Below, in pieces: positions 3,123 to 63,715 of a stretch of 64,000 bases of DNA (its first letter is position 1; each line of letters opens with the position of its first letter). Position numbers and translations under genes: made by a program. A model generated the notes under the pieces. It was not told the DNA's origin, ran no database searches, and saw only the letters and a program-made list of their open reading frames with translations. This DNA is from Sphaerolaimus hirsutus (Eukaryota; Nematoda; Chromadorea; Monhysterida; Sphaerolaimidae): contig OZ038455.1 in the NCBI GenBank assembly GCA_964036195.1, forward strand, positions 7,643,855-7,707,854, given 5' to 3'.

Positions 3123-3650
3123 AACTGACACCCCAATGGGGACCCCCCTCCAAATGGCACCCCCCGGGGAACCCCCCAAAAGTGGCACCCCCTGGGAACC
3201 GCCCAAAAATGAGACCCCCTAGGGCCCCACAAATATGGCACCCCCTGAGGACCACCGAAAAATGGCACCCCTTAGGGACCCCCCAAAAATGGCACCCCCT
3301 TGGGACCCCCCAAAATAGCACCCCCTGGGGACCCCCCAAACATGGCACCCCCTAGGAACCCCCACAAAAATGGCACCCCCTGGGGACCCACCCAAAGTTG
3401 GCTCCCCCTGGGGACTCTCCAAAAATGGCACCCCCTGGGGACCACCCCAAAATGGCACCCCCTTAGGACCCCCCTGCAAAAAAAAATATAGCACCCCCCT
3501 GAGGACCACCAAAAAATGGCACCCCTGGGGACCATTCAAAAAATGGCACCCTATGTGGACCCCCTTGAAATGGCACCCCCATATGTACCTCCAGAAAATG
3601 GCACCCCCTGGAGACCCCCCAAAAATGGCACCCCATGGGGACCCCCTCTA
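3123..3650. repeat. Minisatellite, ~26-27 bp GC-rich unit
   Basis: About 20 degenerate units of the type AAATGGCACCCCCTGGGGAC lie in tandem. Long open frames across it in several frames are products of the repeat, not genes. Confidence 0.9.
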
Positions 3651-3654
3651 AATC

Positions 3655-4062
3655 CTGTAAACACAGCCCCTAGTTTGGAAACTCCTGTAAACTCAGCCCC
3701 TAATTTGGAAACTCCTATAAACTCAGCCCCTAACTTGCAAACTCTCGTAAACTCAGCCCCTAACTTGCAAACTCCCATAAACTCACCCACTTATTTGTAA
3801 GCTCCCATAAACTCAGCCTCTAATTTGAAAACTCCCATAAACTCAGCCCCCAATTTTGGAAACTCCTGTAAACTCAACCCATAATTTGGAAACTGCTGTA
3901 AACTCAGCCCTAATTTGGATACTCCAATAAACTCAGCCCCTAATTTAGAAACTCCCATAAACTCAGCCCCTAATTTGGAAACTCCCTTAAAATCAGCCCC
4001 TAATTTGGAAACTCCCATAAACTCAGTCCCTAATTTGGAAACTCCCGTAAACTCATTTTCAG
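3655..4062. repeat. Minisatellite, ~30 bp unit (AAACTCAGCCCCTAATTTGG)
   Basis: About 13 units follow the previous array directly. The same motif returns at 6458-6640 beyond the intervening satellite, so two blocks of one repeat flank a third array. Confidence 0.9.
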
Positions 4063-6450
4063 GTTTATGGTAATGTAGTGTGAAAATGGTATGAATATTT
4101 CAAAAAATCACTATCATCAATCCACAAATGCATCAATTCACAATTTTCAATTTTTTAGCCCCAAGGGTTAGACTTAAAAGGTTATGGTAATGTAGAGTAG
4201 AAATGGAGTGCACATCTCAAATCACTGCAATAAAAAACCCACAAACGCATCATTTCACAAATTGAAAGTTTTTGTGCCCAGGGGTTCATTATCAGGGTTT
4301 TAGTAATGTGGTGTCAAAATGGAGTGCATATTTGAAATCGCTACAATCAGAAACCCACAAACACATCATTTTATGATTTGAAAATTTTTGGCCCTGGGGG
4401 TTCATTTTCAGGGTTATGGTAATGTAGTGTCAAAATGAAGTGCATATTTCAAATCAAGGCAATCAAAAAGCCACAAATGCATCATTTCACAATTTCTAAT
4501 TTATTAGCCCCATGGGTTCAATTTAAGGCTTACAGTAATAAGCCATTGAAATTGAGTCATTTCAAATCAGTGCAATAAGAAACCTGCAAAATGCATCATT
4601 TTACAATTAGAAATTTTTGGGTCTAGGGGTTCAATTTCAGAGTTTTAGTAATGTAGTGTCAAAATGGAGTGCATATTTGAAATCGCTACAATCAGAAACC
4701 CACAAATGCATCATTTTATGATTTGAAAGTTTTTGGCTTAGGGGGTTCATTTTTATGGTTATGGTAATGTAGTGTCAAAATGAAGTGCATATTTCAAATG
4801 AGTGCAATCAGAAACCTGAAAATGAATGATTTCACAAATTGAAAGTTTTTGGCTCCAGAGGTTCATTTTCAGGGTTATGGTTATGTAGTTTTCAGGGTTA
4901 TGTAGTGTCAAAATGGATTGCATATTTCAAATCAGTGCAATTAGAAACCCACATCAAATCATTTCACAATTTCTAATTTTTTAAGCCCTGGGCATATTTG
5001 AAATAGCTAAACTCTGAAACCCACAAATCCATCATTTTATGGTTTGAAAGTTTTTGGCCCAGGGGGTTCATTTTTAGGGTTATGGTAATGTAGTGTCAAA
5101 ATGAAGTGCATATTTCAAATGAGTGCTATCAGAAACCCGAAAATGCATCATTTATCAAATTGAAAGTATTTGGCCCCATGGGTTCATTTTTAGGGTTATG
5201 GTAATGTAGTGTCAAAATGGAGTGCATATATCAAATTGGTGCAATCATAGACCCAAATTTGAAATCAGTGCAATCAGAAACCCAAAAATGAATGATTTCA
5301 CAAATTGAAAGTTTTTGGCTCCAGAGGTTCATTTTCAGGGTTATGGTTATGTAGTTTTCAGGGTTATGTAGTGTCAAAACGGAGTGCATATTTCAAATCA
5401 GTGCAATTAGAAACCCACATTGAATCATTTCACAATTTCTAATTTTTTAAGCCCTGGGCATATTTGAAATCACTACACTCAGAAACTCACAAATCCATCA
5501 TTTTATGATTTGAAAGTTTTTGGCCCAGGGGGTTCATTTTAGGGTTATGGTAATGTAGTGTCAAAATGAAGTGCATATTTCAGATGAGTGCAATCAGAAA
5601 CCCGAAAATGCATCATTTCTCAAATTGAAAGTATTTAACCCCATGGGTCCATTTTGAGGGTTATGGTAATGTAGTGTCAAAATGGAGTACATATATCAAA
5701 TCAGTGCAATCAGAAACCCAAATTTGAAATCAGTGCAATCAGAAACCCAAAAATGCATCATTTCACAAATTGAAATTTTTTGGCCCCAGTGGTTCATTTT
5801 CAGGGTTATGGTAATGTAGTGTCAAAATGAAGTGCATATTTCAAATGAGTGCAATCAGAAACCTGAAAATGCATCATTTCTCAAATTGAAAGTATTTGGC
5901 CCCATGGGTTCATTTTTTGGGTTATGGTAATGTAGTGTCAATGGAGTGCATATATCAAATCAGTGCAATCAGAAACCTAAATTTGAAATCAGTGCAACCA
6001 GAAACCCAAAAATGCATCATTTCACAAATTGAAAGTTTTTGGCCCCAGTGGTTCATTTTCAGGGTTATGGTAATGTAGTGTCAAAATGGAGTGCATATTT
6101 CAAATGAGTGCAATCAGAAACCTGAAAATGCATCATTTCTCAAATTGAAAGTATTTGGTTCCATGGGTTCATTTTTTGGGTTATGGTAATGTAGTGTCAA
6201 TGGAGTGCATATATCAAATCAGTGCAATCAGAAACCTAAATTTGAAATCAGTGCAACCAGAAACCCAAAAATGCATCATTTCACAAATTGAAAGTTTTTG
6301 GCCCCAGTGGTTCAATTTCAGGGTTATCGTAATGTACTGTCAGAATGGAGTGCATATTTCAAATCATTGTAATCAGTAACCCACAAATGCATTATATCAC
6401 AATTTATATTTTTTAGCCCCGGGGGCCTCACTTAAGGATTATGGTAATGT
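4062..6450. repeat. Satellite array, ~110-150 bp units
   Basis: About 18-20 head-to-tail units share GGGTTATGGTAATGTAGTG, then an ATGGAGTGCATATTTCAAAT segment, then AATGCATCATTTCACAAATT. Unit length varies, and some larger blocks (for example around 4790-4990 and 5250-5450, or 5820-6060 and 6080-6320) recur almost unchanged, indicating higher-order amplification. Non-coding. Confidence 0.9.
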
Positions 6451-7914: not shown

Positions 7915-9860
7915 CAAAGTTTTTCAATTTAATTTTTTACTTGCCATTTCACTTCTCATTTGACTTTTGTTGATTTTCGTTGCAATTCACTTCTCACTTC
8001 TTTTTTTACTTGCCATTTGACTTGACTTGAGACTTGACATTTATAACTTGACATTTGACTTGATATTTGATCACTTGACATTTAACTTTACATTTGACTT
8101 GACATTTACCACTTGAAATTTGACTTGACATATGACTTGTTATTTGACTTGACATGAAATTTGTCACTTGACATTTGACATGACATTGATCAGTTGACAT
8201 TAAACTTGACATTTGACTTGGCATTTGACATGACATTTATCACTTGACATTAAACTTGACATTTCACTTTAAATTTATCACTTGATGTAAAACTTGACAT
8301 TTGACATGACATTTATCACTTGACATTAAGCTTGACATTTAACTTGACATTTGACTTGACATTTGACTTGAAATTTATTACTTGACATTTCACTTGAAAT
8401 TTATCATTTGGCATTTGACTTGACATTTCAATTGAAAGTTATCACTTTGTATTCACCTTGAAATTTATCACTTGACATTTGACTTGACTTTAGACTTGAC
8501 ATTTACAACTTGACATTTGACTTGACATTTATAACTTGACATTTGACTTGATATTTGATCACTTGACATTTAACTTGACATTTGACTTGACATTTACCAC
8601 TTGAAATTTGACTTGACATTTACCACTTGAAATTTGACTTGACATATAACTTGTTATTTGACTTGACTTGAAATTTGTCACTTGACACTTGACATGACAT
8701 TTATCAGTTGACATTAAACTTGACATTTGACTTGACATTTGACATGACATTTATCACTTGACATTAAACTTGACATTTCACTTGAAATTTATCACTTGAC
8801 ATTTGACTTGACATTTGACATGACATTAATCACTTGGCATCAAACTTGACATTTCAGTTGAAATTTATCAGTTGACATTTGACTTGAAAGAAATCACTTG
8901 ATATTTGACTTGATATTTTATCACTTGATTTTTTATAACTTGACATCCATCACTTGACATTTATCACTTGATATTTATCACATGAAATTTATCACTTGAC
9001 ATTTTTCAATTGACATTTGCCTTGACATTCATCACTTGACATTTAACTTGACATTTCACTTGAAATTTATCACTTGACATTTATCACTTGACATCCAAAA
9101 CTTGACATTTGACTTGACTTGACTTTAGACTTGACATTTACAACTTGACATTTGACTTGACATTTGACATGACATTTATCACTTGACATTAAACTTGACA
9201 GTTCACTTGAAATTTATCACTTGATGTTTAACTTGACATTTGACATGACATTTTTCACTTGACATTAAAGTTGACATTTCAGTTGAAATTTATCAGTTGA
9301 CATTTGACTTGAAAGTTATCACTTGATATTTGACTTGATATTTTATCACTTGATATTTTATAACTTGACATCTATCACTTGACATTTATCATTTGATATT
9401 TATCACTTGACATTTATCAATTGATATTTGTCTTGACATTCATCACTTGACATTTAACTTGAAATTTATCACTTGACATTTATCACTTGACATCTATAAC
9501 TTGACATTTATCATTTGATATTTATCACTTGACATTTATCAATTGACATTTATCAAGTGATATTTGTCTTGACATTCATCACTTGACATTTAACTTGAAA
9601 TTTATCACTTGACATTTATCACTTGACATCTATCACTTGACATTTTTCACTTGAAATTTCACTTGAAATCTACCACTTGACATTTATCACTTGATATTTG
9701 ACTTGATATTTTATCACTTAATATTTTATCACTTGACATCTATCACTTGACATTTATCACTTGACATTTGGCCTGACATTTATTGCTTGACATTATCACT
9801 TGACATTTGACTTGACATTTATAACTTGACATTTGACTTGACATTAACCACTAGACATTT
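7915..9860. repeat. Large degenerate array of TTGACATTT-type short units
   Basis: Nearly 2 kb consists of (A)CTTGACATTT with alternating spacers such as GACTTG, ATCACTTG and TATAACTTG, giving a basic period near 10-12 bases and longer repeated blocks of tens of bases. Spacers are neither constant in length nor unique, so it is not CRISPR-like. Confidence 0.92.
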
Positions 9861-37106: not shown

Positions 37107-38930
37107 TAGGGTGTCAAAAATCTTTTTTTACGGAAAACGGAAAACGGAAAGGTAAAATTTTTTCACTTTACGGAAAACGGAAAACAGAAAGGTAAAAAAA
37201 AATTTTCTGCCGGAAAACGGAAAACGGAAAGGTAAAAAAAAATTGTCGGCCGGAAAACGGAAAACGGAAAAATGAAATGCCGGAAAACGGAAAGTTTCAC
37301 GGAAACGGAAGCAAAATTTTCACGGAAACGGAAAAAAAATAAAGTGAAATTAGCACGGTAATAGACAAATTTGCAGAAGGAAAACCTGCATGCAGGTTTG
37401 CCTGTTTGGCTTTGATTGTGGTAGTTGTACATTCTGCAACTATGGATCATGCCTGTAACTTCACTTGTAGTTCAAGCTTAACTGAACCAACAAAAAATCA
37501 TCAAGAAGTAGCCATAGTGGCCATAGGAAAGGAAACACTACGACAATTTCACAGTCTAGAAGCAGTGGGAATCACTGATGACCCCTATGCAATTGATGAC
37601 AACATTGCAGAGGAGATGATAATAAATAGCATAAAATTCAACGACAACAACAAACAATACTATATTGACTGGCTGTATAAAGAGAGTATCAGTGACCTGC
37701 CCACAGGAAAAGCAGAAGCCTTGGTGCAGTTTAAATCACTGATAAGAAGATTCAACAAAGATCCAAACTTATTCAAACAATACCGGAAAGTTTTGGACAA
37801 CCAACTAGAAAAGAGAATAATTGAGATCTGTGATGACAAAACAGACAACAAGGGGATTCATTACCTGCCACACCAGCCAGTAATCACGCCGGGCAAATCG
37901 ACATCCTGCAGAATCGTGTACAATGGGTCGGCAGGTAAGCCCAGTTTCAACGAGTGCTTTTTTAGAGGACCAATTACAACACAATTAGCACTGGGCCTAC
38001 TCCTGAGGTTCAGGGCAGACAATCTAGCATTAATTGCCAATATTGAAAAGGCATTTTTGCAAATAGAATTGCATGACCAAGCTAGAGACTACACACGATT
38101 TTTCTGGCTGAAAGATGCCTCAAAACCAGTAACTGAAAATAACTTAATAGTACTTCATTTTAAACGTGTACTGTTTGGACTTGTCTGCAGCCCAGCAATT
38201 TTGGGAGCAGTCATAAAATACCATTTAAATGTGACAATAAACAACATGAATGAATATGAAGAAAATGAAGGGGAACAAAACCAGTTGGCAATGATAATAA
38301 ACAACATTTACGTCAATAATTTCATCATGAGTGTCACGAATGAAGTTGAAGCTTTAAAGCTATATTACAAAGTCAAAGCTTTATTTAACCAATGTTATAT
38401 GAACATGAGGGAATGGCTGTCAAACTCCAGATCAGTCATGAATGAAATAGCAGAAAACGACAGGAGTCCAAAGGTGAATAAAATTGTCGCAGTAATGGGC
38501 ATGAAATAAAATCACCAAACAGACATGCTGGCAATATCAACACCAAAATTGCAAATTGACAGCATCACAACACCAACCAGACGAAGCTTGAATAAATTAT
38601 TGGTGTCAGCATATGACCCAATTGGGTTCACAGCACCTGTTTCACTGACCCTGAAATCCCAGTTGTCAATGCTGCTCCAAGAGACACAAACAACACAATG
38701 GGATGAGCCAATTGAAGATAAATACGGATTGGAAAAACAATGGAAAAATGCCAGAAAACGGAAAATCGAGCCAGAAAATGGAAAAATGGCCTGGTAAAAC
38801 GGAAACGGAAAGGTAAAAAAATTTCAGCCGGAAAACGGAAAAATGGGCCGGAAAAACGGAAACGGAAAGGTAAAAAATTTTCCTGCAGAAAGGCGGAAAC
38901 GGAAAACGGAAACGGAAATTTGACACCCTA
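37107..38930. mobile_element. hAT-like element carrying a BEL/Pao pol fragment, TSD CAAAGGAG
   Basis: A perfect 8-bp duplication (37099-37106, 38931-38938) flanks TAGGGTGTCAAA...TTTGACACCCTA. Sub-terminal regions (37130-37330; 38750-38920) are CGGAAAACGGAAAGGTAAAA arrays. The centre is a segment of BEL/Pao retrotransposon pol. A sister copy with deletions is at 51822-53137 with its own duplication, so the captured segment moves with the element. No hAT transposase is present. Confidence 0.9.
37406..38797 (+). pseudogene. Captured BEL/Pao pol fragment (reverse transcriptase and connection), catalytically dead
   Basis: A 367-codon frame, one in-frame TAA (38507-38509), then the same frame continues to about 38797. 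Recognisable BEL/Pao blocks in order: LEAVGITDDPYAIDD (about residue 50), HYLPHQPVITPGK (150), CRIVYNGSAGKPSFNECFFR with GPITTQL (165-195), NIEKAFLQIEL (215), FKRVLFGLVCSPAILGAVI (250-268), then after the stop SAYDPIGFTAPVSLTLKSQL, the BEL/Pao signature between RT and RNase H. The motif A aspartate reads N (ANIEKAF) and the motif C box reads YVNN, so polymerase activity is not possible as written. No protease, RNase H or integrase is present. The fragment begins and ends inside the CGGAAAAC arrays. Confidence 0.85.
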
Positions 38931-51821: not shown

Positions 51822-53137
51822 TAGGGTGTCAAAAAATTTTTTTTACGGAAAACGGAAAACGGAAAGGTAAAATTTTTTCACTTTACGGAAAACGGAAAAC
51901 GGAAAGGTAAAAAAAAAATTTCTGCCGGAAAACGGAAAACGGAAAGGTAAAAAAATTTCACTCAGCGGAAAACGGAAAACGGAAAGGTAAAAAAAAATTG
52001 TTGGCCGGAAAACGGAAAACGGAAAAATGAAATGCCGGAAAACGGAAAACGGAAAGCAAAATTTTCACGGAAACGGAAAAAAATAAAGTGAAATTAGCAC
52101 GGTAATAGACAAATTTGCAGAAGGAAAACCTGCATGCAGGTTTGCCTGTTTGGCTTTGTTTGTGGTAGCTGTACATTCTGCAACTATGGATCATGCCTGT
52201 AACTTCACTTGTAGTTCAAGCTTAACTGAACCAACAAAAAATCATCAAAAAGTAGCCATAGTGGCCATAAGAAAGGAAACACTACGACAATTTCACAGTC
52301 TAGAAGCAGTGGGAATCACTGATGACCCCTATGCAATTGATGACAACATTGCAGAGGAGATGATAATAAATAGCATAAAATTCAACAACAACAACAAACA
52401 ATACTATATTGACTGGCCGTATAAAGAGAGTATCAGTGACCTGCCCACAGGAAAAGCAGAAGCCTTGGTGCGGTTTAAATCACTGATAAGAAGATTCAAC
52501 AAAGATCCAAACCAATTCAAACAATACCGGAAAGTTTTGGATGACCAACTAGAAAAGGGATCTGTGATAACTTCATCATGAGTGTCACGAATGAAGTTGA
52601 AGCTTTAGAACTATATTACAATATCAACACCAAAATTGCAAATTGACAGCATCACAACACCAACCAGACGAAACTTGAATAAATTATTGGTGTCAGCATA
52701 TGACCCAATTGGGTTCACAGCACCTGTTTCACTGACCCTGAAATCCCATTTGTCAATGCTGCTCCAAGAGACAAAAACAACACAATTGGATGAGCCAATT
52801 GAAGATAAATACAGATTGGAAAAACAATGGAAAAATGCCCAAAAACTGAAAATCGAGCCAGAAAATGGAAAAATGGCCTGGTAAAACGGAAACGGAAAGG
52901 TAAAAATTTTTCAGCCGGAAAACGGAAAAATGGGCCGGAAAAACGGAAACGGAAAGGTAAAAAATTTTCAGCTGCCGGAAAACGGAAAACGGAAAGGTAA
53001 AATTTTTTCGGCTGCCGGAAAACGGAAAACGGAAAGGTAAAATTTTTTCAGCTGCCGGAAAACGGAAAACGGAAAGGTAAAAAATTTTCCTGCGGAAAGG
53101 CGGAAACGGAAAACGGAAACGGAAATTTGACACCCTA
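51822..53137. mobile_element. hAT-like element with deleted BEL/Pao fragment, TSD CTCGGGAG
   Basis: A perfect 8-bp duplication (51814-51821, 53138-53145) flanks TAGGGTGTCAAA...TTTGACACCCTA. The left arm of the palindrome keeps the empty site (TTTTACTCGGGAGTAGGG in complement near 49388-49405). CGGAAAACGGAAAGG arrays at both ends. Confidence 0.93.
52150..52884 (+). pseudogene. Internally deleted copy of the captured BEL/Pao pol fragment
   Basis: Nearly identical to 37406-38797 up to LDDQLEKG (52560). It then jumps to the region after the motif C box (a deletion of about 500 bases) and again to ISTPKLQIDSITTP (about 150 bases lost). It retains SAYDPIGFTAPVSLTLKS. No reverse-transcriptase core remains. 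Confidence 0.85.
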
Positions 53138-55689
53138 CTCGGGAGTAGGGTTTTTTAGAGGGAGCAAGTATTTTTTATTTTTTCTACACTCAACTAACAT
53201 GGGGGAGTTAGAGAGGGATAAATTGGAGTAAATACAGTAGCTCTATCAATTTTGGCAAAGAGAGATGTAAGTTACAACTTCTTTGCACTGTCTGCAAGTA
53301 CCACACAGGACTTGTGCACAAAATTAACCAACCAAGGACTAATCAATCTCAATCACATTTTACTCAAGCAAGGAATTACTCAATGAGAAGGGATTCATTC
53401 AATGGGTGTTATTCAAGGTGAGTGACGTAAAAGCGCCTGGCGCTAGCGCCAAAGCAAAAAGCACCATGGCACTTTTGGTGCTTGGCGCCTTTTTGCTGTG
53501 GCGCCATTGGCGCTTGGCGCTGTGTTATGAAAAAGCGCCATGGTGCTTTTGGCGCTTGGCGCTGTGATGCCGTGGCGCCATTGGCGCTTGGCGCTAGCAT
53601 TTTAAAAAGTGCCAAATAAGCGCCAAGGAGTTCAAAAAATATATCACTATTTTATGTGAAAAGATTTTGTGTGCATGATTTTCAGAAGTAAATGTGTTAC
53701 TGTAAGTGTATTCAGGAAGAACAAACCCTCTACTGCTTATTTTGTATACATGTTCATGCAATTGCGAGGATATTCAACACTTTCCCAAATAATGGGCAGA
53801 TGAGAGATGTTCAAATGCATGGTGTTGCGTTGTGTTGAAAATCAAGCTTTATTGTTGATATTATGTGTTAATGTGCAATGTACCTGGTGCCACTCCCAGA
53901 CCCTGTAACAGACCCTGTAAAGTGTAAAAGACCCTGTAAAATGTCAGGTGCATGGTTGGCAAAATCTCTGGCAAATAAAAAAATAAAAAATAAAAAAATA
54001 AAATAAAAATAAAATGGAAAATGGAAGAATAAAATTAAAATAAAAAACAATTTTCATACAATTTATATACAAATAATTCTTATACAACTAACCAAGGTCA
54101 GGTGTCATGTAAAAACCATGTTAAGTGTCATGTAAAAGACCTTGTAAAGTGTCATGTGTATGCAAATCTTATTTTATCATATCCAAATCTCATATTATCA
54201 TATCCAAACTGTGTGTTCTTGTATCCAAATCTTATGTAAAAGAGTAAGATTTGGATACTAAAACATAAGTTTTGGATACTATATAATCAGATTTAGATAC
54301 ACATGACACTTTAAAGGGTCTTTTACATTACATTTGACACTAAACACAGTTTTTTATGTGACACATGACATTATCTATACAAATCTAAGCACTTTTCTCC
54401 GCAATGGCTTTCCATTGTCAACCGGAACTCTCAGCTGTAAAATAACATCACAAAATAAAAGAAAACTTGACTTGATTAGGCATAATCTTGCTTTTGGCGC
54501 TGGCGCTATTGGCGCTTTGTGCTTGCATGCCAAAAGCACCATGGGGGTATTCAAAGTGGAATTTCTTGAGGGCTCAATTGAGTAGCTGTTTCAATTTTGA
54601 CATTGAAACATGTAGGTTACAAGTTTTCTGCAATTTGTAAAAGTACCATGCAGAAACCATGTGTCTATCATGTTGGAGCAGAGTAAAACACACCTAGTAA
54701 AACTAGAAAGAGCATAGACCACATGCTTGGGGCATTCCCAGACCCTATAAAAGACCCTGTAAAGTGTCAAAGACCCTGTAAAATGTCATGTGTCATGTAA
54801 AAGACCCTGTAAAATGTCATGTGTCATGTAAAAGACCCTGTCAATTGTCAAATGTCTTGTAAAAGACCCTGTAAAGTGTCACGTGTTTCCAAATCTTATG
54901 TTTTTGTATCCAAATCTTATGTTTTTTGTATCCAAATCTTATGTAAAACATAAGATTTGGATACAAAAACATAAGATTTGGATATTAGAAAATAAGATTT
55001 GGATACACATAACACTTTACAGGGTATTTTACATTACACATGACATTTTACAGGGTCTTTGACACTTTTCAAGGTTTTTTTACAGCGTCTAGGAGTGGCA
55101 GCTGATAATCGGAACATTAATATGGAAGCTCCAGGTGATTCTGATCATTTTAAGTGTTTATTGGTGAAAATCGGTTGAGAAATAGCTGAGATATCGAGTT
55201 CTGAAATTGCATGCATTTTCATTCAACTGGATCAAATCAGCATATGAAATTTACACATCACTAATCCGACCAAAAAAATTGAATCTGCACGCTGTCCTGA
55301 TCATTTTAATTGTTGACCGCTCATAAACAGCCCATAAATGACCAACTTATTAAGCTTCAAAAGCAATGTCCAGATAAGGCATACAAAATGAACAGCTTTG
55401 TATAGACACCCTAATCTCAGGAGTGGGGGATTATTTGAGCAAACACTAATATTTGGTCACAACACAAATGAAATTTAATGTACATAATTATTTACTGCAG
55501 ATTTCAAAACAACATTAAAATCACTGCAATACAACATGATCTCAGATGATCACCAAAACATCCATCACAGTTCCCACGTTTCTTGCACATCACCCTGATT
55601 TGCATATTAATTTTACCTTGATAGCAATGATGTTGATAAAAGTGTTGAATACTATCAGCACATTGCCAACACACTGGCTTACACTAGCC
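53138..55689 (-). repeat. Right palindrome arm, segment between the hAT-like and Penelope-like insertions
   Basis: Reverse complement of about 46430-49395 minus the 422-bp left-arm insertion. It holds mirror copies of the GCGCCAA array and both GACCCTGTAAAA elements, and a mirror of the foldback arm (55100-55450). Confidence 0.85.
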
Positions 55690-56270
55690 AAATTTGAAAG
55701 GTAAAATCTCACCCAAAAGTTTTTTGAATTTTGAAAATTGTGAATTCGGACTGGGGAACTTTTATCCCCGCACTGGAAGAGATGGGGGGGATTGGCAGTC
55801 CGCCAAATAGCTAAGTTTGGAAGGTGTGTTCCAGTGGTGCCTCGCAGTACCCTGAGCGCTTCTTCCGAACTAAGTTCAGCCAAAAATTGACAAAAATTAT
55901 TAAAGTGTCAACTACTTCTTTTAAAGTACCAAAAAAGAAAACTAAAAACTCCCAACTGACTCTGAAATCTCCCCATCTCTTTTTCTGTTCATCCGTGAAA
56001 TCATCTTCATAATTACGTTGAATTGCGGTGGAGCTACTAGCGCCGCCGCCGCGAGACAAAGCGCCGCGCACCGCAGCGCCGCGTGTCATTTTGCCGCGTC
56101 CCTGTCCGCGAATGTTGATCGACATGATTGTTCACGTTTCTGCAAAAACCGGTTTTTATTATTTTTAATTATGAATTTGCTAATGTCGAAAATTAGGCAG
56201 GTGTAAATTGGGTCAAACTGTGAGATTGCGAAATGCGTGGTTATCTTAAATAAGATGTTATATTTAAAAA
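55690..56270 (-). repeat. Penelope-like terminal direct repeat, 3' copy
   Basis: On the minus strand it begins about 10 bases after the RT gene stop and contains the leader and the 104-codon frame MSINIRGQGRGKMTRG (56125-55811), then is cut at the junction with the target. In effect it is the start of a second, truncated head-to-tail copy. Confidence 0.88.
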
Positions 56271-56277
56271 CCGAAAG

Positions 56278-59226
56278 TTATTTAAAAAGCTGATTAACCC
56301 AATCAGTTCTTTGTTTTTTGCTGACTATATCATATTTATGAAAAAGTGGGGAATATTTATTAGAAAAAGCGATCAATGTTTTCTTCATTTTTAAAATATT
56401 GTATCCATGACTTATTAGATGGTTGATTAATAAATTGATACGAAAATTGCTGTCTGAGATTTTGGTACAGATGCGCATAAAGCGTAGGCTTTGTGAATAT
56501 AAAACGTTGTAGCAAACAGATTCTTTTATGTTTGAGTGAATGAAAGGCATTGTTATAATCGGAAAATTGTAGTCATCAGTTTTATTATAAATTTTAAAAA
56601 CAGGACGGTTTTCCGAAATTTCAACATCTAGGTCCAGAAAATGGCTTTTTAGGCCATTTTGCAAACAAGTAAACTCTAAAGTTAAAGAACTGTGGTAAAT
56701 TAATTTTGAATACTCACTAAAATCCGGTAAGTCTATACACAGTGTGTCGTCAATGTATCTTAAACATTTATTGTTTAAATATTTTAAAACCACTCTGTCT
56801 GTGCAATTTTTTTAAAAAGTAAATTCCATCATAGCTAAGCTGAGATTGCAAAACTCTGGGGACACAGATGACCCCATTGTTATGCCACACGTTTGTTTAA
56901 AAAGCAGGCCCGCAAAAGAAACATACGTGTTGTCAAGTAAAAAGTGAAGAAGCTCAATTATCTTGGAATTGTCAAACCAGATAGTGTCCCGGTCGTCCAA
57001 ATGATGCCGTTTCGTTGCATAGACCCTGGAATTTTTTATCAGTAAAACGTCATCAAATTTTAGTAGCAGATTTACCAATCGTGATATTTGATATTTAATT
57101 TCGTTAATATCCAATGACGTATATGCTTGGGAGAAATCGGCTGACTGTAAGTGGGAGATTTTATTGAAATCCGACATTTTGTCTATAGCTTGGGAACTGT
57201 TTTCTATGATCCAGAAACGATTGAAACCACCATTTTCCACTATTTTGGTACAGTAAAATTTAAACATTTTTTGTAAATGAGCCAAAATAAGATGCAAATA
57301 CCAAGATAAACCATTAATTGATGCAGATTTTGCTCCCGCAATGAAGCGGAATTTTGGGGGGCTTTTATGGAATTTCGGTATAGCATAAATAATAGGTACA
57401 GTAGCTTTATACTTAGCATCAATACATTGGAAGTAGTCATGAGTATTTTTGTGGAGTTCAAAAAGCGAGTTTAACTCTAAATCGTTGATATTACAATAAG
57501 AATAAGTTTTATTTCCTAATGAATTTGTTGAAGAATCAATGCTCACGCCAAACTCATTGCAAATTACCTGAGCGTATAGTTTTTTACAAATGAACGCGTA
57601 AGTTCCAGCCGCCTTGTCAATACATGTCACGACATAGTTTTGGTGGAGCTCTTTCAACTGGTTATCACATTCTTGCGTCCAGTTATCTGTGTGCAGGCGT
57701 TCGAATGGAGTTGAGTAGGATTTAAGTTTACAGCAAATGCCGCGTATGGCTCGGTCTTTAAAGCACCGAACCAACTCAACATTCGCATTTGGAAAAGTAC
57801 ATAGATGATTGCATATTTTGGATACAGCATCAATAAATTTGTTATACGTCAACTTTTTATTGGGTTTATTAGGTAACCTATATTTGGTACCAAATGACAA
57901 GAATTTTTTCAACGAACTGTTTTTTATAAAATTTAAATTACCGGTTAAAACATGGTCAAAATGAGGATGTTTAAATGGGTTTGACACGCAGTCACAAACA
58001 CTGTTTAAAAGTAACTTTAAGTCCTGATAAGAAAGATTTTTTAGAAAATGATTATAGTTAAATATTTTTAGGGAGAGTGGAGTATCATAACAAACCCTAA
58101 TTTGCAATCTATCTAGATAATTAAGTTGTTTTTCAGTCAACTGAGATTTAAAAGTATTTCGATGCAAAACATTGAGTGAAATCACATCGTCAGTAGGTGT
58201 ATCGTACTTAATTGATACATTAATTGGATTTAGTTTTTTCCGATCTGAAAAGTAAAGTCTCCTACGTTTTGCCTCTGAGCCAAAACGTAGACAAAGGTAA
58301 ACAATTTTGGATATTTTACCATTTGAGTATGAAGTTTGTGCCAAGTAAAAAACAATGGATAAAAATGACTTTTTCAGTGAATTAACGTACTTGTACACTT
58401 CTCTTGGTGATGACAAAACTTCAATGTCCGCAGTTGTTGGAGGTTGCGAAGTGTTATGGTGTCTTTTCGGGCGACTTCGTGGGAATCTGAGTAGTTTTGT
58501 ATTGAAAAATGGCAATTGTTTATTATTGCTTAATAAGTCAAATTTGTCAATTAGGCCAAGATTTTTAATTTTTTGATTAAGGCCGAAGGGGTAAGAAGTA
58601 TTTAAAATTGTAATCCAATAAAATTCGAAATTTAAAAAGTTTTTGGGTTTAGTATTCCCTTGAAATGCTTCTAGACAATGAATTATTTGAATATAGAGTA
58701 GATCCGGATTACAAGTAGTATCCAAAAAATGTGAGTAAAATTTATTTGTATTGGATTTTCGACGTAAATGGTACAGATGCTGCTGAAAACGTTTATCGAG
58801 TGAATTTTTAGTCTCACCTACATATTGTACTCCACATTCACAAGTTATAAGATAAATTACGTTTTTTGTCATGCATGATAAGTTTGTAAAAAGATGTATA
58901 AAAGATTTTCCGGTGATAGTAGAAACAAAATAATTTGATTGATTGATATTTGGGCAGGTCCGGCAGCCTAACCTGCCGCATGGTTTTGTGGGGGTCCCCG
59001 AGTATTTATCCGCTAAAACAGCCGTAAATGCATCAAAATCAACAAAGTAGGCAGCCAAGTGCCTACTAGCAACAAGCGAAAAAGACGGCGAATCGACAAA
59101 CCGAAAATTTAAAGTTGAACGAGGCCGTGTATCCAATTTATCACTGTCATCCAACGGCACTGACAGCGCGTCGCTTTGTGGGTACGCCATAACATTATCG
59201 CTGGAAGTAGGTTCTGTCAAGTCCAT
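56278..59226 (-). pseudogene. Penelope-like GIY-YIG endonuclease + reverse transcriptase, one in-frame TAA
   Basis: One frame of 981 codons from ATG 59226 with a single TAA at 56812-56814; the 171-codon remainder is in the same frame. Order: a Cys cluster CGRLGCRTCP (residues 83-92); a GIY-YIG domain at about 121-215 (NVIYLITCECGVQYVGET, KRFQQH, FEFYWITILNT then P-F-G-L-N); then RT motifs: AIPKFHKSPPKFRFIAGAKS, the motif A aspartate in SADFSQAYTSLDI, motif B QTCGITMGSSVSPEFCNL, and after the stop motif C LRYIDDTLCI. Catalytic D and YIDD are intact. The endonuclease precedes the RT, as in Naiad/Chlamys-group elements; canonical Penelope has it C-terminal. The stop falls between motifs B and C, so no full RT is made without readthrough. 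TAA is not a selenocysteine codon. Confidence 0.9.
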
Positions 59227-59459
59227 GATAATGTTTCAAAAAGCCGCCTTACAAAGATGGGGACATAGATAAGAATAATTGAGTTATAAATACTCATAAT
59301 TCATGAAGAATGAAAAGTAATTCAAAAATCACAGAATGTATTTATTTCATCAACAGCGCAATGTAAACAAAAATAGAATCAGGTTCAATTCAAATAATCA
59401 AAAAATCGTCAAATAACAGCATACATTGTAACCCTTTCAAAATCGATCATGCACATTGT

Positions 59460-59789
59460 CTAGTCACCGCGAGTCAAGGACCGTCCTGTGCCGAGATTGC
59501 GATAGTTTACTTTAGGTTTGAGTGCAAAACGAGATGCTCGACGCAGGTTACGGTTCGAATCATCAAAAGAAAGAGAACTAGTAGCCGAAATTTTTGAAAT
59601 CAGATTGTCACTGCGTAAATTAGAGACAATTTCACCGGCCGAATTGACACCATTGGGCGAGGGGGTTGTGGCATTGAAGCCACGCCCCTTAGTGGATTTC
59701 GATTGACTAAAATTGGGGTCTGACGGAGCTGATTCATTTGACGAGCGCGGCCGCACCACGCCCCTATCAACTGGTGTCGAGTTGACCAC
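59460..59789 (-). CDS. Penelope-like element ORF1 region, last exon
   Basis: A 109-codon Ser/Asn/Arg-rich tail (VVNSTPVDRGVV ... NLGTGRSLTRGD) ending in a stop at 59460. It joins in phase 0 to the preceding exon through a 59-base GT-AG intron (59790-59848; GTATTTTTC ... AAAATTAAG): SMEE|VVNSTP. Likely nucleic-acid-binding tail by composition only. Confidence 0.55.
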   Translation of the reverse strand: MVNSTPVDRGVVRPRSSNESAPSDPNFSQSKSTKGRGFNATTPSPNGVNSAGEIVSNLRSDNLISKISATSSLSFDDSNRNLRRASRFALKPKVNYRNLGTGRSLTRGD

Positions 59790-59848
59790 CTTAATTTTGA
59801 AAATAAATGCCCAAAGAAACGAATGAAAAATGCAAAATTGAAAAATAC

Positions 59849-60264
59849 CTCTTCCATGCTGGCGTTTTGCTTAGAAGAAGCGGCGGCGCCAGCAGAGCTC
59901 GATGAGAAAACAGGGGCCGCACCTTGCGGGACCGTATCTTCATTCAATTGCAAATCATTCATGGAATTCACCAGAGGAGCTCTTTTGCCAGCCGCAATTT
60001 ACGACCAATGTCAATGTATTGTTTGTAGTCTGTAGCAAAATTGGCCAAAGTGCACCAGTCAACATGACCGTTTTTCGATTTGTCACCGCGCTGTTTGACC
60101 ATGATTTTGCCCACATAATTATCGGGGTCGCGTCTCCAACGCGCAGTGTTTTGCAATTGGCCCGCATTAAACAATTTCGAGAGCTCAGTTCCATGAGCTC
60201 GTTCTTGGCGCATTTCGATGGTTTCGTCCATGGCCAAACTGATTTTGCTGCCATTAATCCTGAT
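59849..60264 (-). CDS. Penelope-like element ORF1 region, middle exon(s), frame-disrupted
   Basis: The acceptor TTTATCAG|GATTAATGG (about 60265) opens INGSKISLAMDETIEMRQER continuing through WRRDPDNYVGKIMVK and IGRKLRLAKELLW to a stop near 59968. An overlapping frame (GKRAPLVNSMNDLQLNEDTV ... QNASMEE) leads to the donor at 59848. A +1 shift, mutation or unseen short intron is needed to join them. Unknown family. Confidence 0.45.
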
Positions 60265-60520
60265 AAATGGGTAAATAATACAAAAGAGGTGTATATTTTA
60301 AAAACCGAGTGACTAAAAGTTTTGTGGAAGTACTTTTGAAATAACGTTTTTTAGAAAATTTGACAAAAACACATAGGAAAATACTCATTGACGCAGGTAA
60401 AATAATCGAAGTAAAATAATACTACATTATTTAAAATAAGAATAATTTTTTGCACAACTCATTGACAAATTGCTTGTAAAAGTGAAGGATTGGACAATTT
60501 TAAAAAACGACTAAAATATT

Positions 60521-60954
60521 TTAAAAAACTGACGAAAAATTTTCCGGTATCGGTTTTTTCAGAACTTGCATCGCCAGAGAGTGCGTGGCAAAGCGCACTT
60601 TTAAGGAACCACCCAATTGTTCAACTTTGTCGATGGCGCCCAGGGGCATGCCATCGGCATTCGTCCAACCTTGCGCGTGCATCAAAATCTGTTTTGCGGT
60701 GCTCAATAGATCGTTTTTCTTGATCCGAGGTTTACCAACGCCATGGATGAGCACGTGAAACGAGGCCACATAGGTTTCAGTTTGTTGGGTGCGTTGCCAC
60801 AGTTGACCGAAATTCGGGCGTTCAGGCTGGAATGCAAAAAACGTTTTGTTTGTAACCACCTTGGCGTTAGCTTCAAGTGGTTACTGGATAAAAAGGTGGA
60901 GCGCAGGGGGTACCGTACGCTTGGAGCCACCTTCCAAACTTAGAACTACCCCGG
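60521..60954 (-). CDS. Penelope-like element ORF1 region, RRM-like segment, one stop
   Basis: A frame from about 60954 (VLSLEGGSKRTVPPALH) meets one TAA near 60888, then runs PLEANAKVVTNKTFFAFQ to NFSSVF at 60521. The stretch FHVLIHGVGKPRIKKNDLL, a helix, and LGGSLKVRFATHSLAMQVLK looks like the beta-alpha-beta pattern of the RRM-like domain in LINE ORF1 proteins ('vvIhGvpe ... r.g ... RpilVrF'). A resemblance only. Donor candidates lie near 60535. Confidence 0.4.
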
Positions 60955-61255
60955 AAAGTGGTGTTACCGCACAAAGGGTGTTCTATAAAATGAAAAGTAG
61001 TTGAATTTCATAGCTAGAAATAGGGTTTAGTTAAATTAAGACTCAATGTGGGAAAGGGAGGAATCGAAATGGGAAATTAAAAAAGAAATAGGTGAAGGCA
61101 ATGTGAAACTAATTGAAAAGTAAGTTAAAGCCAGAAAAAGGAAAGTTGGTGAGAATACTGAAGTTAGTAGAGTCGATAAAAATTAATATTTTGGCATTTC
61201 ACGGGTCGACCCAGTCTGGGTTACCCACACGAGCTGGGTCGATTGCCGTTAGAGC

Positions 61256-61836
61256 AAATTTGAAAGGTAAAATCTCACCCAAAAGTTTTTTGAATTTTGA
61301 AAATTGTGAATTCGGACTGGGGAACTTTTATCCCCGCACTGGAAGAGATGGGAGGGATTGGCAGTCCGCCAAATAGCTAAGTTTGGAAGGTGTGTTCCAG
61401 TGGTGCCTCGCAGTACCCTGAGCGCTTCTTCCGAACTAAGTTCAGCCAAAAATTGACAAAAATTATTAAAGTGTCAACTACTTCTTTTAAAGTACCAAAA
61501 AAGAAAACTAAAAACTCCCAACTGACTCTGAAATCTCCCCATCTCTTTTTCTGTTCATCCGTGAAATCATCTTCATAATTACGTTGAATTGCGGTGGAGC
61601 TACTAGCGCCGCCGCCGCGAGACAAAGCGCCGCGCACCGCAGCGCCGCGTGTCATTTTGCCGCGTCCCTGTCCGCGAATGTTGATCGACATGATTGTTCA
61701 CGTTTCTGCAAAAACCGGTTTTTATTATTTTTAATTATGAATTTGCTAATGTCGAAAATTAGGCAGGTGTAAATTGGGTCAAACTGTGAGATTGCGAAAT
61801 GCGTGGTTATCTTAAATAAGATGTTATATTTAAAAA
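61256..61836 (-). repeat. Penelope-like terminal direct repeat, 5' copy
   Basis: Contains the leader and ATG at 61691 (MSINIRGQGRGKMTRG, then Gly/Ser/Ala and Q-K-K-R-W), with a GT-AG pair (TTTTTG|GTACTT ... AACTTAG|TTCGG) that would splice this frame to the overlapping frame at 61449 (MAELSSEEALRVLRG). Such a short intron would explain the two overlapping frames. Confidence 0.85.
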
Positions 61837-62657
61837 ATTTACATGATTTTAAAAGTTACATGATCACAACTGAAAGCAGCGTTGAGCTATAGCACCATGT
61901 ATACATCAGTACAAAATGACCGAAATTGTAACACCCACAGTTCCGCAGTGGGTGGAGCTAGAGGGGTGAAATTTTGGGTAAAAACTCAAAACACCTGATA
62001 TGTATACGTGTTGAAATTTTATGACAGTAGCTCGCCCCTAGCGCGAATGGCGAGCACTGTCCAGGTACTTTTCTGCCCGTTCTCTGTTTACTTCTCTGAT
62101 TACTAAAAAAAAATTTTCTCGCCGGGGTCGTTTGGCCCCGACCGGGGACAATTACCACAAAGTCCCAAAAAGTACCATAAATTTTTGTGTGGTACCGGGG
62201 CCAAACGACCCCAGTCGGGGACCAAAATTCGTTGTATACTGAAAAAAAACGTTCCTCACCGGGGACGTTTGGCCCTGGTCGGGGCCATTTCAATATTGCC
62301 GGGGACCGGACCCCGGCAGGATTTCATGCACTATAAAAAATACAGTAATCAACGAAAATTAAAGTGTAAATAAAAAGATACTCAGTAACTGCTCTGAGCT
62401 AAAATTTGGCATGCGTACTCACTCGACGAAGGAGAACACGCATGCCAAATTTGAGAAAAATCAAAAAAAATTATAGACCCCCCAAACAAAATTTGCATCG
62501 CCGTGTTTGACCGTCATGCAGAAATTTTGTGCATGCAAATTTGGTGTTAATTAACCTAATTAACACACAAAGAACCCATGCACACCAATTATTGTTTTTT
62601 GAAAAAAATTATTTTTTGCCGGGTCCCGGTCCCCGGCCGGGACCTGTGTAAATAGCC
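61837..62657 (-). repeat. Outer part of the right palindrome arm
   Basis: Reverse complement of 45624-46425. It contains the GGGGAC-rich module (62090-62335) and GCATGCGTACTCACTCGACG. The frame GEERFFSVYNEFWSPTGVVW is identical in both arms and is a repeat artefact. Confidence 0.9.
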
Positions 62658-62723
62658 AGTTTTTTTAATGCAGGTTGGATGGTTTGCTCAATATTGCTCA
62701 AACTTTTTAACATGTCTTTTCAG

Positions 62724-62839
62724 TGTGCACTCACATCATACCTAGCAACAATGTGGATACTCAAATATCATATGATGGAATGATGGATGGTACATCATAT
62801 GTGCAACTTGGGGGCACAGGCGTTATCAGCTGTATGCAG
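62724..62839 (+). CDS. Sushi/CCP gene exon: first half-domain
   Basis: The acceptor TGTCTTTTCAG|TGTGCACTC (phase 1) fits the 44889 donor (C-E-E-V-C-T-H-I-I-P); the donor ATGCAG|GTTTGT is phase 0. The peptide CTHIIPSNNVDTQISYDGMM ... GGTGVISCMQ has Cys1 and the 'G..V...C' of CCP. It has the same phase pattern (1 in, 0 out) as 34671-34795. A terminus resembling the Harbinger-derived element (ACACAAGCTAGTTTTCATGG) lies in the next intron at 62893. Confidence 0.7.
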
Positions 62840-63092
62840 GTTTGTGTCATGTTCATAGTGAATTCTTTTTAAAGTGTTAATAATGTGGCCACACAAGCTA
62901 GTTTTCATGGTTCCCATTTGAAAACTTGTTCAGAAATTGAATAGTGATGCAAATGCTGATTGACGGTTCCACCATCATGATAGATCTAGTGCAGTAGTAT
63001 TGGGATGCAATTATTTGTTTACAGAAATGATCAGTCCATGCACTACTGTTAAAGGAAACTGACAAGATTTCAAATGCGTTTTCAAATTCTAG

Positions 63093-63315
63093 CCATACAA
63101 ACTAGTTTGTGTGGCACCAACGTCGATAAAAACTGCTGGTGGTGATCCATTCTACCACCATTATTTTCAGAATTTTGTTTGGTTTCTAAAACCCAGAGAT
63201 GAAGCACGTACAGTAGAGTGTAGGGAGCATAATCAGTGGAATGGAGATTTGATGAACTGCAGTTACACATATGATAATCTAACAATGAAATGCAGGTCAA
63301 GGAATTGTTTTGCCA
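63093..63315 (+). CDS. Sushi/CCP gene exon: second half-domain
   Basis: The acceptor TTCAAATTCTAG|CCATAC (phase 0) and donor TTGCCA|GTATGT (phase 1), 74 codons plus one. The peptide PYKLVCVAPTSIKTAGGDPF ... RTVECREHNQWNGDLMNCSY carries 'V.C...(H)..W.....C', the CCP Cys3-Trp-Cys4 signature, then a short Cys-containing tail (MKCRSRNCFA). Confidence 0.7.
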
Positions 63316-63376
63316 GTATGTGAATGAATGACATTTTTAATCAATCCTTTGTCTGTCAACTATGACTGTTTTTCAG

Positions 63377-63531
63377 CGTGTGCACATTCAGCTGCCCAAA
63401 CGATAGATTTCGGTTTTAGGGTGTCTTCCATCAACACAGAAAACTTTACAGAAATAGTATATGGAGACAGGACATCAATAAATGGCACAGCTACAGTATA
63501 CTGTCATGATGGGTTCGGCTGGTCTGACATG
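63377..63531 (+). CDS. Sushi/CCP gene exon: start of another module
   Basis: The acceptor ACTGTTTTTCAG|CGTGTGC joins the previous donor in phase 1 (A-T-C-A-H-S-A-A-Q-T). It continues FRVSSINTENFTEIVYGD to NGTATVYCHDGFGWSDM; 'V.C..G(F/Y)' is Cys2. ATG|GTGTGT at 63531 is the likely phase-0 donor; without it the frame stops at TGA 63547. Confidence 0.65.
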
Positions 63532-63715
63532 GTGTGTCACTATGAATGAATGTAATGATGTGTCATTTTTGAGCTGTCAATGAGAGATGTGCATACATTT
63601 TTTGAGGACAATCAATATCATTTTTGAAATCTGAGAGAAGACATCTTAGGTTCCACAATGCACATATATTTAGAAGACAACAGACACAAATGGTGCTATG
63701 AGACATCAGACAACA
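63532..63715. other. Intron, nothing recognised
   Basis: Short AT-rich sequence between the last exon and the final element. Confidence 0.5.

Follow-up and report, generated by a model that had tools for sequence, protein, structure and literature searches.

The window analysed here, a 64,000-nucleotide stretch of the nematode Sphaerolaimus hirsutus genome (GenBank assembly GCA_964036195.1, contig OZ038455.1, positions 7,643,855 to 7,707,854), contains on its minus strand, at 61836-55689, what its sequence identifies as one copy of a Penelope-like element (PLE) with an endonuclease-first open reading frame (ORF2) between direct repeats. The explanation that we favour, and consider very probable, is that this copy belongs to a Naiad-type PLE family possessing a selected, spliced upstream reading frame (ORF1) and a structured RNA, and that it is a fairly recent insertion that is now inactive; the name Naiad is applied by the definition of this class given below. 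In sequence, the unit opens with a repeat that comprises the leader, ORF1 exon 1 and, in intron 1, the structured RNA; it continues with ORF1 exons 3 to 5 and ORF2 and closes with the start of the next unit, which is cut off shortly past the structured RNA.

The element is framed by a 582-bp direct repeat pair with a single mismatch, which bears out a first-pass annotation of this DNA, made from the letters alone, that had described near-identical terminal direct repeats. The 5' terminal direct repeat, or pseudo-long terminal repeat (pLTR), at 61255-61836 carries the 5' leader, ORF1 exon 1 and the RNA structure; the 3' terminal direct repeat at 55689-56270 is the start of the next tandem unit, and its 3' end lies within ORF1 intron 1. 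A gap of 7 nt separates the ORF2 stop from this second repeat (6623 and 6631 in oriented coordinates), which gives a unit length of 5,566 bp; behind it come the opening 582 bp of the next unit. Tandem units were also seen in three related copies from the host genome (L011, L025 and L028), and no second copy of the element was found within the 64-kb window. The window ORF2 contains an in-frame TAA at 56812-56814, ahead of its YIDD motif, and comparison with two copies that read through (L009 and L011) reveals a frameshift in ORF1 exon 4, located between about 60003 and 59985; these two lesions indicate that the window copy is dead. Its flanks yielded only 5-bp matches as a target-site duplication. 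Adjoining the element, at 62105-62290, are GC-rich repeats (CCGGGG...CCCCGG) in direct and inverted orientation.

ORF2 extends on the minus strand from an ATG at 59226 to a stop at 56278 and encodes a Cys cluster, a GIY-YIG endonuclease, a CxC motif and a reverse transcriptase (RT) with YIDD near the C-terminal end. Using queries that started at 59220, two codons inside ORF2, Pfam placed the GIY-YIG domain (E 9.5e-6) at residues 120-173, N-terminal to the RT and downstream of the Cys cluster CGRLGCRTC, so the order proposed in the first-pass annotation, with the endonuclease ahead of the RT and a Cys cluster before it, stands. The linker motif CDC...HVLTGNL matches CxC...H(V/I)xTG(N/D)L. A comparison of ORF2 with PDB sequences gave a sole 46-residue match to a MarR regulator (E 0.0014), which was taken as chance.

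Naiad and Chlamys, as reportedly described by Craig et al. in 2021, are PLEs with an N-terminal endonuclease. Naiad-type elements are defined by a CxC motif between endonuclease and RT, an insertion in the fingers domain and the absence of the canonical hammerhead. A search of 5.8 billion proteins returned 64 matches, with long alignments reaching up to 31% identity; rows of the C-terminal-endonuclease type showed 31-39% identity, aligned over just 13-22% of the query. By motif check, the endonuclease lay before YxDD in 39 of the 64 matches and after it in 7, with 18 undecided. The CxC-H(V/I)xTG motif was present in 45 of 54 rows of the endonuclease-first group (P0001-P0054, a label checked by motif for part of the rows) versus none of the nine rows of the C-terminal group, seven of which the motif check confirmed as C-terminal. 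Where both RT motifs A and B could be located, the spacing between them was 76 in the window, 73-81 in 44 endonuclease-first rows and 51-60 in four C-terminal rows. A quick tree of 65 rows placed the window and P0001-P0054 on one side of a branch with a Shimodaira-Hasegawa-like approximate likelihood-ratio support (SH-aLRT) of 100. In a second quick tree (16 host rows including the window, with 36 of the 64 matches), the host rows formed one clade inside the endonuclease-first group, again at 100; this tree used 15 fetched copies and left out L010, L012, L014, L025 and L026. In both trees the window thus falls outside the PLEs with a C-terminal endonuclease, so that placement among canonical Penelope elements with a relocated endonuclease, the outcome against which the first-pass annotation had proposed an RT phylogeny, was not seen. 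Together these features make assignment to the endonuclease-first, Naiad-type PLEs very probable, at the level of confidence that we attach to the explanation as a whole. Viral and prokaryote contigs yielded no RT relatives. Among the database relatives, P0004, P0005, P0013 and P0016 carry a ubiquitin hydrolase (UCH) domain; in P0004 and P0005, the two scanned, it is C-terminal to the RT, and the four proteins occupy two separate places in the 65-row tree.

Relatives of the element are numerous in the host genome. A search of its 348.5 Mb (762 contigs), in which 56 of 464 candidates were scored, identified at least 57 RT rows; their identity ranges from 34 to 100%, and many lie in open frames of around 1,000 aa. 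Two adjoining rows were merged, giving 56 RT rows for linkage counts. We fetched 20 places of 9 kb each (L009-L028), five upstream pieces whose RTs are 34-43% identical to that of the window (L029-L033) and six pieces downstream of ORF1 places (L034-L039). Of the 15 fetched copies used for the tree, 14 have an open ORF2 of 980-987 aa, and L021 gave 890 aa. The family is diverse in this genome and, judging by these open frames, possibly active. Three copies showed repeats of other dimensions. In the oriented sequences, with the RT on the plus strand, the 5'-truncated copies L010 and L012 are flanked by direct repeats of the surrounding DNA (3459-3721 and 7959-8221, 263 bp, 100% identical; 3573-4234 and 8091-8752, 662 bp, 99.7% identical), which are possibly very long target-site duplications. 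L022 holds a full unit between direct repeats of about 975 bp (94-1067 and 8024-9001, 98.6% identical).

We next consider the upstream spliced region, which the first-pass annotation had placed in the same repeat-bounded unit as the RT. By tblastn, ORF1 exons 3, 4 or 5 were found upstream of the RT, in order and on the same strand, in 15 of the 20 copies; they were not matched in L012, L014, L016, L021 and L026, of which L012 and L014 look 5'-truncated. A profile search detected exons 3 and 4, complete or partial, in 16 of 25 loci, nine of which had contributed to the profile. A genome-wide search with the window ORF1 core yielded 54 rows at 41 places, the window among them. At 27 of these an RT lies 783-1395 bp downstream on the same strand, compared to a chance expectation of about 0.01; two places adjoin an RT on the opposite strand, and 12 had no RT among the matches listed. 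Of those 12, all six that were fetched contain RT sequence, in five on the same strand; L034 retains a remnant of about 60 residues from the start of the RT protein, on the same strand as ORF1, and L035 an inverted fragment near ORF1. RT sequence is therefore present near ORF1 at all 35 examined places of the 41, and ORF1 exons in unrelated contexts, apart from any RT gene, were not encountered among them. The core also accompanies RTs with 40-69% identity to that of the window. Given this linkage, together with the conserved splice sites and low dN/dS described below, we conclude that ORF1 is a part of the element.

On the minus strand, the ORF1 model comprises exon 1 (61527-61691; 55 aa, rich in RG/RGG), exon 3 (60534-60826, the first half of the conserved core), exon 4 (59849-60259, the second half of the core, in which the window frameshift lies), a 59-nt intron (59790-59848) and exon 5 with the stop codon (59460-59789); exons 3, 4 and 5 match sequences in relatives, and exon 1 is most likely spliced directly to exon 3. 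Inspection of 11 loci with exon matches located the predicted splice sites at the same places throughout, with intron sequence and length varying. Exon 1 ends at an equal position, with a GT donor, in the seven other loci shown. Exon 3 has an AG acceptor in 10 of 10 loci and a GT donor in 11 of 11; AG acceptors precede exon 4 in 10 of 11 (the exception being L025) and exon 5 in 5 of 5. The 59-base intron of the first-pass annotation (59848-59790) holds up in this comparison: it is phase-consistent, its acceptor is the AG found in all five copies shown, and its GAG|GT donor fits in both relatives tested. ORF1 is open in L009 and L011 over about 390-400 aa (394 and 398 with the last fitting donor).

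Two further candidates were rejected. A 74-nt intron at 59971-59898 would keep the window ORF1 open; two relatives carry the exon straight through this position, which argues that the window ORF1 is indeed frameshifted. A 60-nt exon at 61338-61279 is most likely no exon: its matches in L011, L013 and L014 (11-13 residues) coincide with a conserved RNA block, and its reading frame is not kept in other copies of that block. The intron between exons 3 and 4 was gained or lost within the family, since the two exons form a single open frame in a more distant lineage (31-34% identity).

Of 45 ORF1 core pairs, four had dS under 1.8, and for these the ratio of nonsynonymous to synonymous substitution rates (dN/dS) was 0.023, 0.072, 0.073 and 0.051; the other 41 were dropped as saturated (dS at least 1.8) or not computable. 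Of three ORF2 pairs, two gave 0.10, both with dS above 2, and the third was not computable. These ratios place ORF1 under strong purifying selection.

The first-pass annotation had also attributed RRM-like character to ORF1, and this was not supported. Neither a single sequence nor a 10-copy profile matched anything in PDB, and the whole protein had no match in Pfam. There the core as a single sequence gave only a weak OxRdtase_C hit (E 0.1), and the 10 copies gave a Ku beta-barrel line in two members, at best E 0.0033, plus two other lines at E 0.12, which were taken as chance. An RRM or an L1 ORF1p-type protein was thus rejected at the level of sequence profiles. The structure prediction that had been proposed was carried out as two single-sequence models, whose predicted local distance difference test (pLDDT) scores of 48 and 41 make them uninformative on an RRM fold. 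No ORF1 homologues were found in the 5.8-billion-protein database, in which the length limit of one search barred full-length relatives. RG/RGG-rich first exons in the window, L009, L011 and L020 suggest that ORF1 may bind RNA.

Between ORF1 exons 1 and 3, within the repeat, lies a block of about 130 nt that is conserved at the nucleotide level. We describe it as a putative structured RNA with an outer stem, a GNRA-type hairpin, a long-range five-pair stem enclosing a GCC-loop hairpin, and a GGGG-UAARAGU-CCCC hairpin; the fold is junction-like and its unpaired bases are near-invariant. RNAalifold, run on 13 copies, recovered the outer stem and the last hairpin and showed covariation, 4 of the 16 pairs having changed on both sides; the long-range stem and GNRA hairpin were drawn by eye. 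In seven copies (L016 and L020-L025), 97% of cells were paired, while shuffles had 91% and slid versions of the structure no more than 52%, and four of five measures were reached by none of 500 shuffles. In the plain MAFFT alignment of these copies, the long-range stem changes on both sides at each of its five pairs, and 97% of its cells remain paired.

A covariance model from these seven copies, whose E-values are rough, gave matches to the RNA at E at most 0.02 in 24 of 26 sources (the seven used for training and 17 of 19 others). Built without the window, it found both window repeats; its weakest matches were L032 (0.0011) and L031 (0.012), and the next window matches had E near 1. In the window the first copy of the RNA lies at 61307-61436, in ORF1 intron 1 (E 2.7e-12 with a model from other copies), and the second at 55741-55870 (E 4e-12 with a model from other copies and 1.4e-24 with one that includes this copy), both on the minus strand. 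A second model, from 23 sources, detected the two loci missed before, L029 (E 6e-9) and L030 (E 2e-6), which have a different upstream ORF yet the same RNA structure, and gave no match in L034-L039, the stretch behind ORF1. In an alignment of 36 matches (28 distinct rows), which leans towards the model because it was fitted to it, 93% of cells were paired and 18 of 24 pairs change on both sides; none of 500 shuffles reached these values, and slid structures were 38-55% paired. At gathering score, Rfam, hammerhead included, had no match in the window or nine loci; at E values of 10 or less, the element gave four low-scoring matches to other families. The RNA core pattern was not found in viral contigs. 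Taken together, the alignments argue that the PLE repeats carry a strongly covarying structured RNA outside the Rfam families.

The position of this RNA relative to the insertion ends is narrowly defined. Its strand and position are constant across copies, and its end lies 24-85 nt from the repeat end, which is the 3' end of the element, in 12 fetched copies (52 nt in the window); the distance is equal in both repeats in 11 of the 12, L023 having 80 and 85. In six copies with a located exon 1, including the window, the repeat ends 272-325 nt past the exon 1 donor, which places the 3' end of the insertion inside ORF1 intron 1. AATTT occurs in the last ten bases of 8 of 11 3' ends, the window end being CAAATTTG. 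The intron between exons 3 and 4 is retained in 10 fetched copies with repeat pairs 97.7-100% identical. If such pairs date insertions, the persistence of introns in copies with near-identical repeats suggests that the insertion template was unspliced; gene conversion between repeats could weaken this dating.

These observations can be arranged into an inferred mechanism, the one that we hold most likely. Transcription from the repeat would yield both a spliced ORF1 message and a longer unspliced RNA running through ORF2 into the next repeat, such that splicing would strip the structured RNA from the message and the template RNA would retain it. ORF1, with its RGG-rich start, may act as an RNA-binding helper, and the RT encoded by ORF2 may recognise the structured RNA in the downstream repeat. 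The ORF2 endonuclease would open the target, and complementary DNA would start 24-85 nt downstream of the structured RNA, often at an AATTTG-like end, and proceed back through ORF2 and then ORF1, producing the arrangement observed. A broader proposal, to which we give somewhat less than even credence, is that endonuclease-first PLEs have their own conserved, cofactor-like RNA structure, unrelated to hammerheads, in an intron of an ORF1 that most of these elements require, with splicing parting message from template and the RT being loaded and started just downstream; such an RNA might be a cis counterpart of the guide RNA of telomerase, a relative of the RT.

Three other explanations were weighed. 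ORF1 might be a host gene captured between PLE repeats rather than a part of the element, as with the nonribosomal peptide synthetase (NRPS) gene of Adineta vaga. PLE repeats that frame host genes with introns are on record (PMC3846280), and ORF1 does have introns and no known domain. A captured gene would hardly be expected upstream of the RT, on the same strand and within a narrow gap, at 27 of 41 places, with RT sequence near all 35 examined, nor beside RTs 40-69% identical to that of the window; ORF1 moreover has its first exon inside the repeat and is under purifying selection. We regard capture as highly improbable. The conserved block might alternatively be a DNA element, such as a promoter or an endonuclease target, in which pairing is incidental. 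It does sit in the repeat, where a promoter is expected, and the single-strand folds of four of seven copies are no better than shuffles. Against this reading are the pairs that change on both sides (18 of 24 in the model-fitted alignment, where no shuffle reached the values and slid structures were 38-55% paired, and all five of the long-range stem, 97% paired, in the plain MAFFT alignment) and the constant strand and position of the block, which make it very unlikely.

A stronger contender, still unlikely in our judgement, is that the RNA is a self-cleaving ribozyme that replaces the hammerhead of canonical PLE repeats, and that it does not, or does not solely, bind the RT. In the anole PLE a hammerhead occupies the same position, at the repeat-ORF junction (PMC11167929); the RNA has a junction-like fold with near-invariant unpaired bases, and neither a hammerhead nor any other Rfam family matches at gathering score. 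The RNA likewise matches no ribozyme family and is a candidate by sequence alone, and hammerhead mutants of the anole PLE left insertion in vitro unchanged (PMC11167929). We favour an RNA that serves the RT of a Naiad-type PLE with its own ORF1.

Several points weigh against this preferred explanation. The case is built on DNA sequence, and all copies come from one genome, so that linkage and covariation rest on related families and the independent changes in the RNA are fewer than the cells counted. Four of the seven copies have single-strand folding energies close to those of shuffles, and so the argument for the RNA rests on covariation and the blind model search; the fifth measure in the seven-copy test, further pair types, was reached by 52 of 500 shuffles. 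Both RT trees are quick ones with long branches flagged, and they contain no named Naiad or Chlamys references. The role of ORF1 is a guess, as the protein has no recognisable domain. In addition, 29 of the 56 RT rows have no upstream ORF1-core match, some of them being 5'-truncated, and L029 and L030, among the most divergent RTs, carry a different upstream ORF (1562-2404 and 2271-2714, respectively, both on the minus strand); these two ORFs are 54% identical to each other and have no Pfam match. Finally, three of 11 3' ends (L009, L024 and L025) lack AATTT, and no clear target-site duplication was found at 11 full units.

Elsewhere in the window, at 54118-55080, direct and inverted repeats cluster and interleave around AAAGACCCTGTAAAGTGTCA, resembling a miniature inverted-repeat transposable element (MITE). 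Two ORFs at 37343-38509 and 52087-52581 are near-identical across their shared part, and by eye they look like BEL/Pao-type pol pieces. Plus-strand stretches at 62720-63550 resemble, again by eye, sushi/CCP exons of an animal gene.

To a Naiad-type PLE, this family makes two additions, a spliced, selected ORF1 and a structured RNA. Among literature titles and abstract openings on PLEs, none announced, for endonuclease-first PLEs, a structured RNA or an ORF1 that is spliced or of RRM type, the paper of Craig et al. 2021 lying outside this comparison. A covarying RNA close to the insertion end would offer a concrete place to study how a little-studied PLE class copies itself, a second selected gene would make at least this lineage a two-protein system, and the location of the RNA inside an intron offers a simple link to the intron retention noted for PLEs. 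With Naiad and Chlamys, the window family shares an endonuclease before the RT, a CxC linker, a longer A-B spacing, pLTRs, tandem copies and the absence of a hammerhead match; relative to that description, it adds the spliced, selected ORF1 and the conserved structured RNA in the repeats.

LINE-1 ORF1p likewise comes from an upstream ORF and offers a parallel for a putative RNA-binding helper, with a beta-alpha pattern similar by eye only, whereas the window ORF1 has introns and no sequence-profile match. Additional ORFs beside the RT are a further likeness to Athena, Terminons and Neptune-like PLEs. The passages compared (PMC5408684) describe a GDSL esterase or a DEDDy exonuclease, with esterases in Neptune-like elements and several ORFs in Terminons; these are other proteins than ORF1, and no such RNA appears in those passages. 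Athena elements lack the endonuclease. As for canonical endonuclease-bearing (EN+) PLEs, a passage of a 2019 review presents these as single-ORF elements and endonuclease-lacking (EN-) PLEs as two-ORF elements (PMC6431247), and PLE repeats are described as moving intron-bearing genes, as with the Adineta vaga NRPS gene framed by Penelope repeats (PMC3846280). A precedent for the inferred mechanism comes from a different PLE, the green anole PAc, in which reverse transcription in vitro starts internally near the repeat-ORF junction, genomic insertion ends map there, and a hammerhead lies at that junction (PMC11167929). The window family thus resembles canonical EN+ PLEs such as Penelope and the Poseidon element PAc in its pLTRs, its tandem units and a 3' end inside the start of the coding region, and differs from them, as far as the passages compared describe them, in that theirs are elements with a C-terminal endonuclease, usually one ORF and, in PAc, a hammerhead at the repeat-ORF junction.

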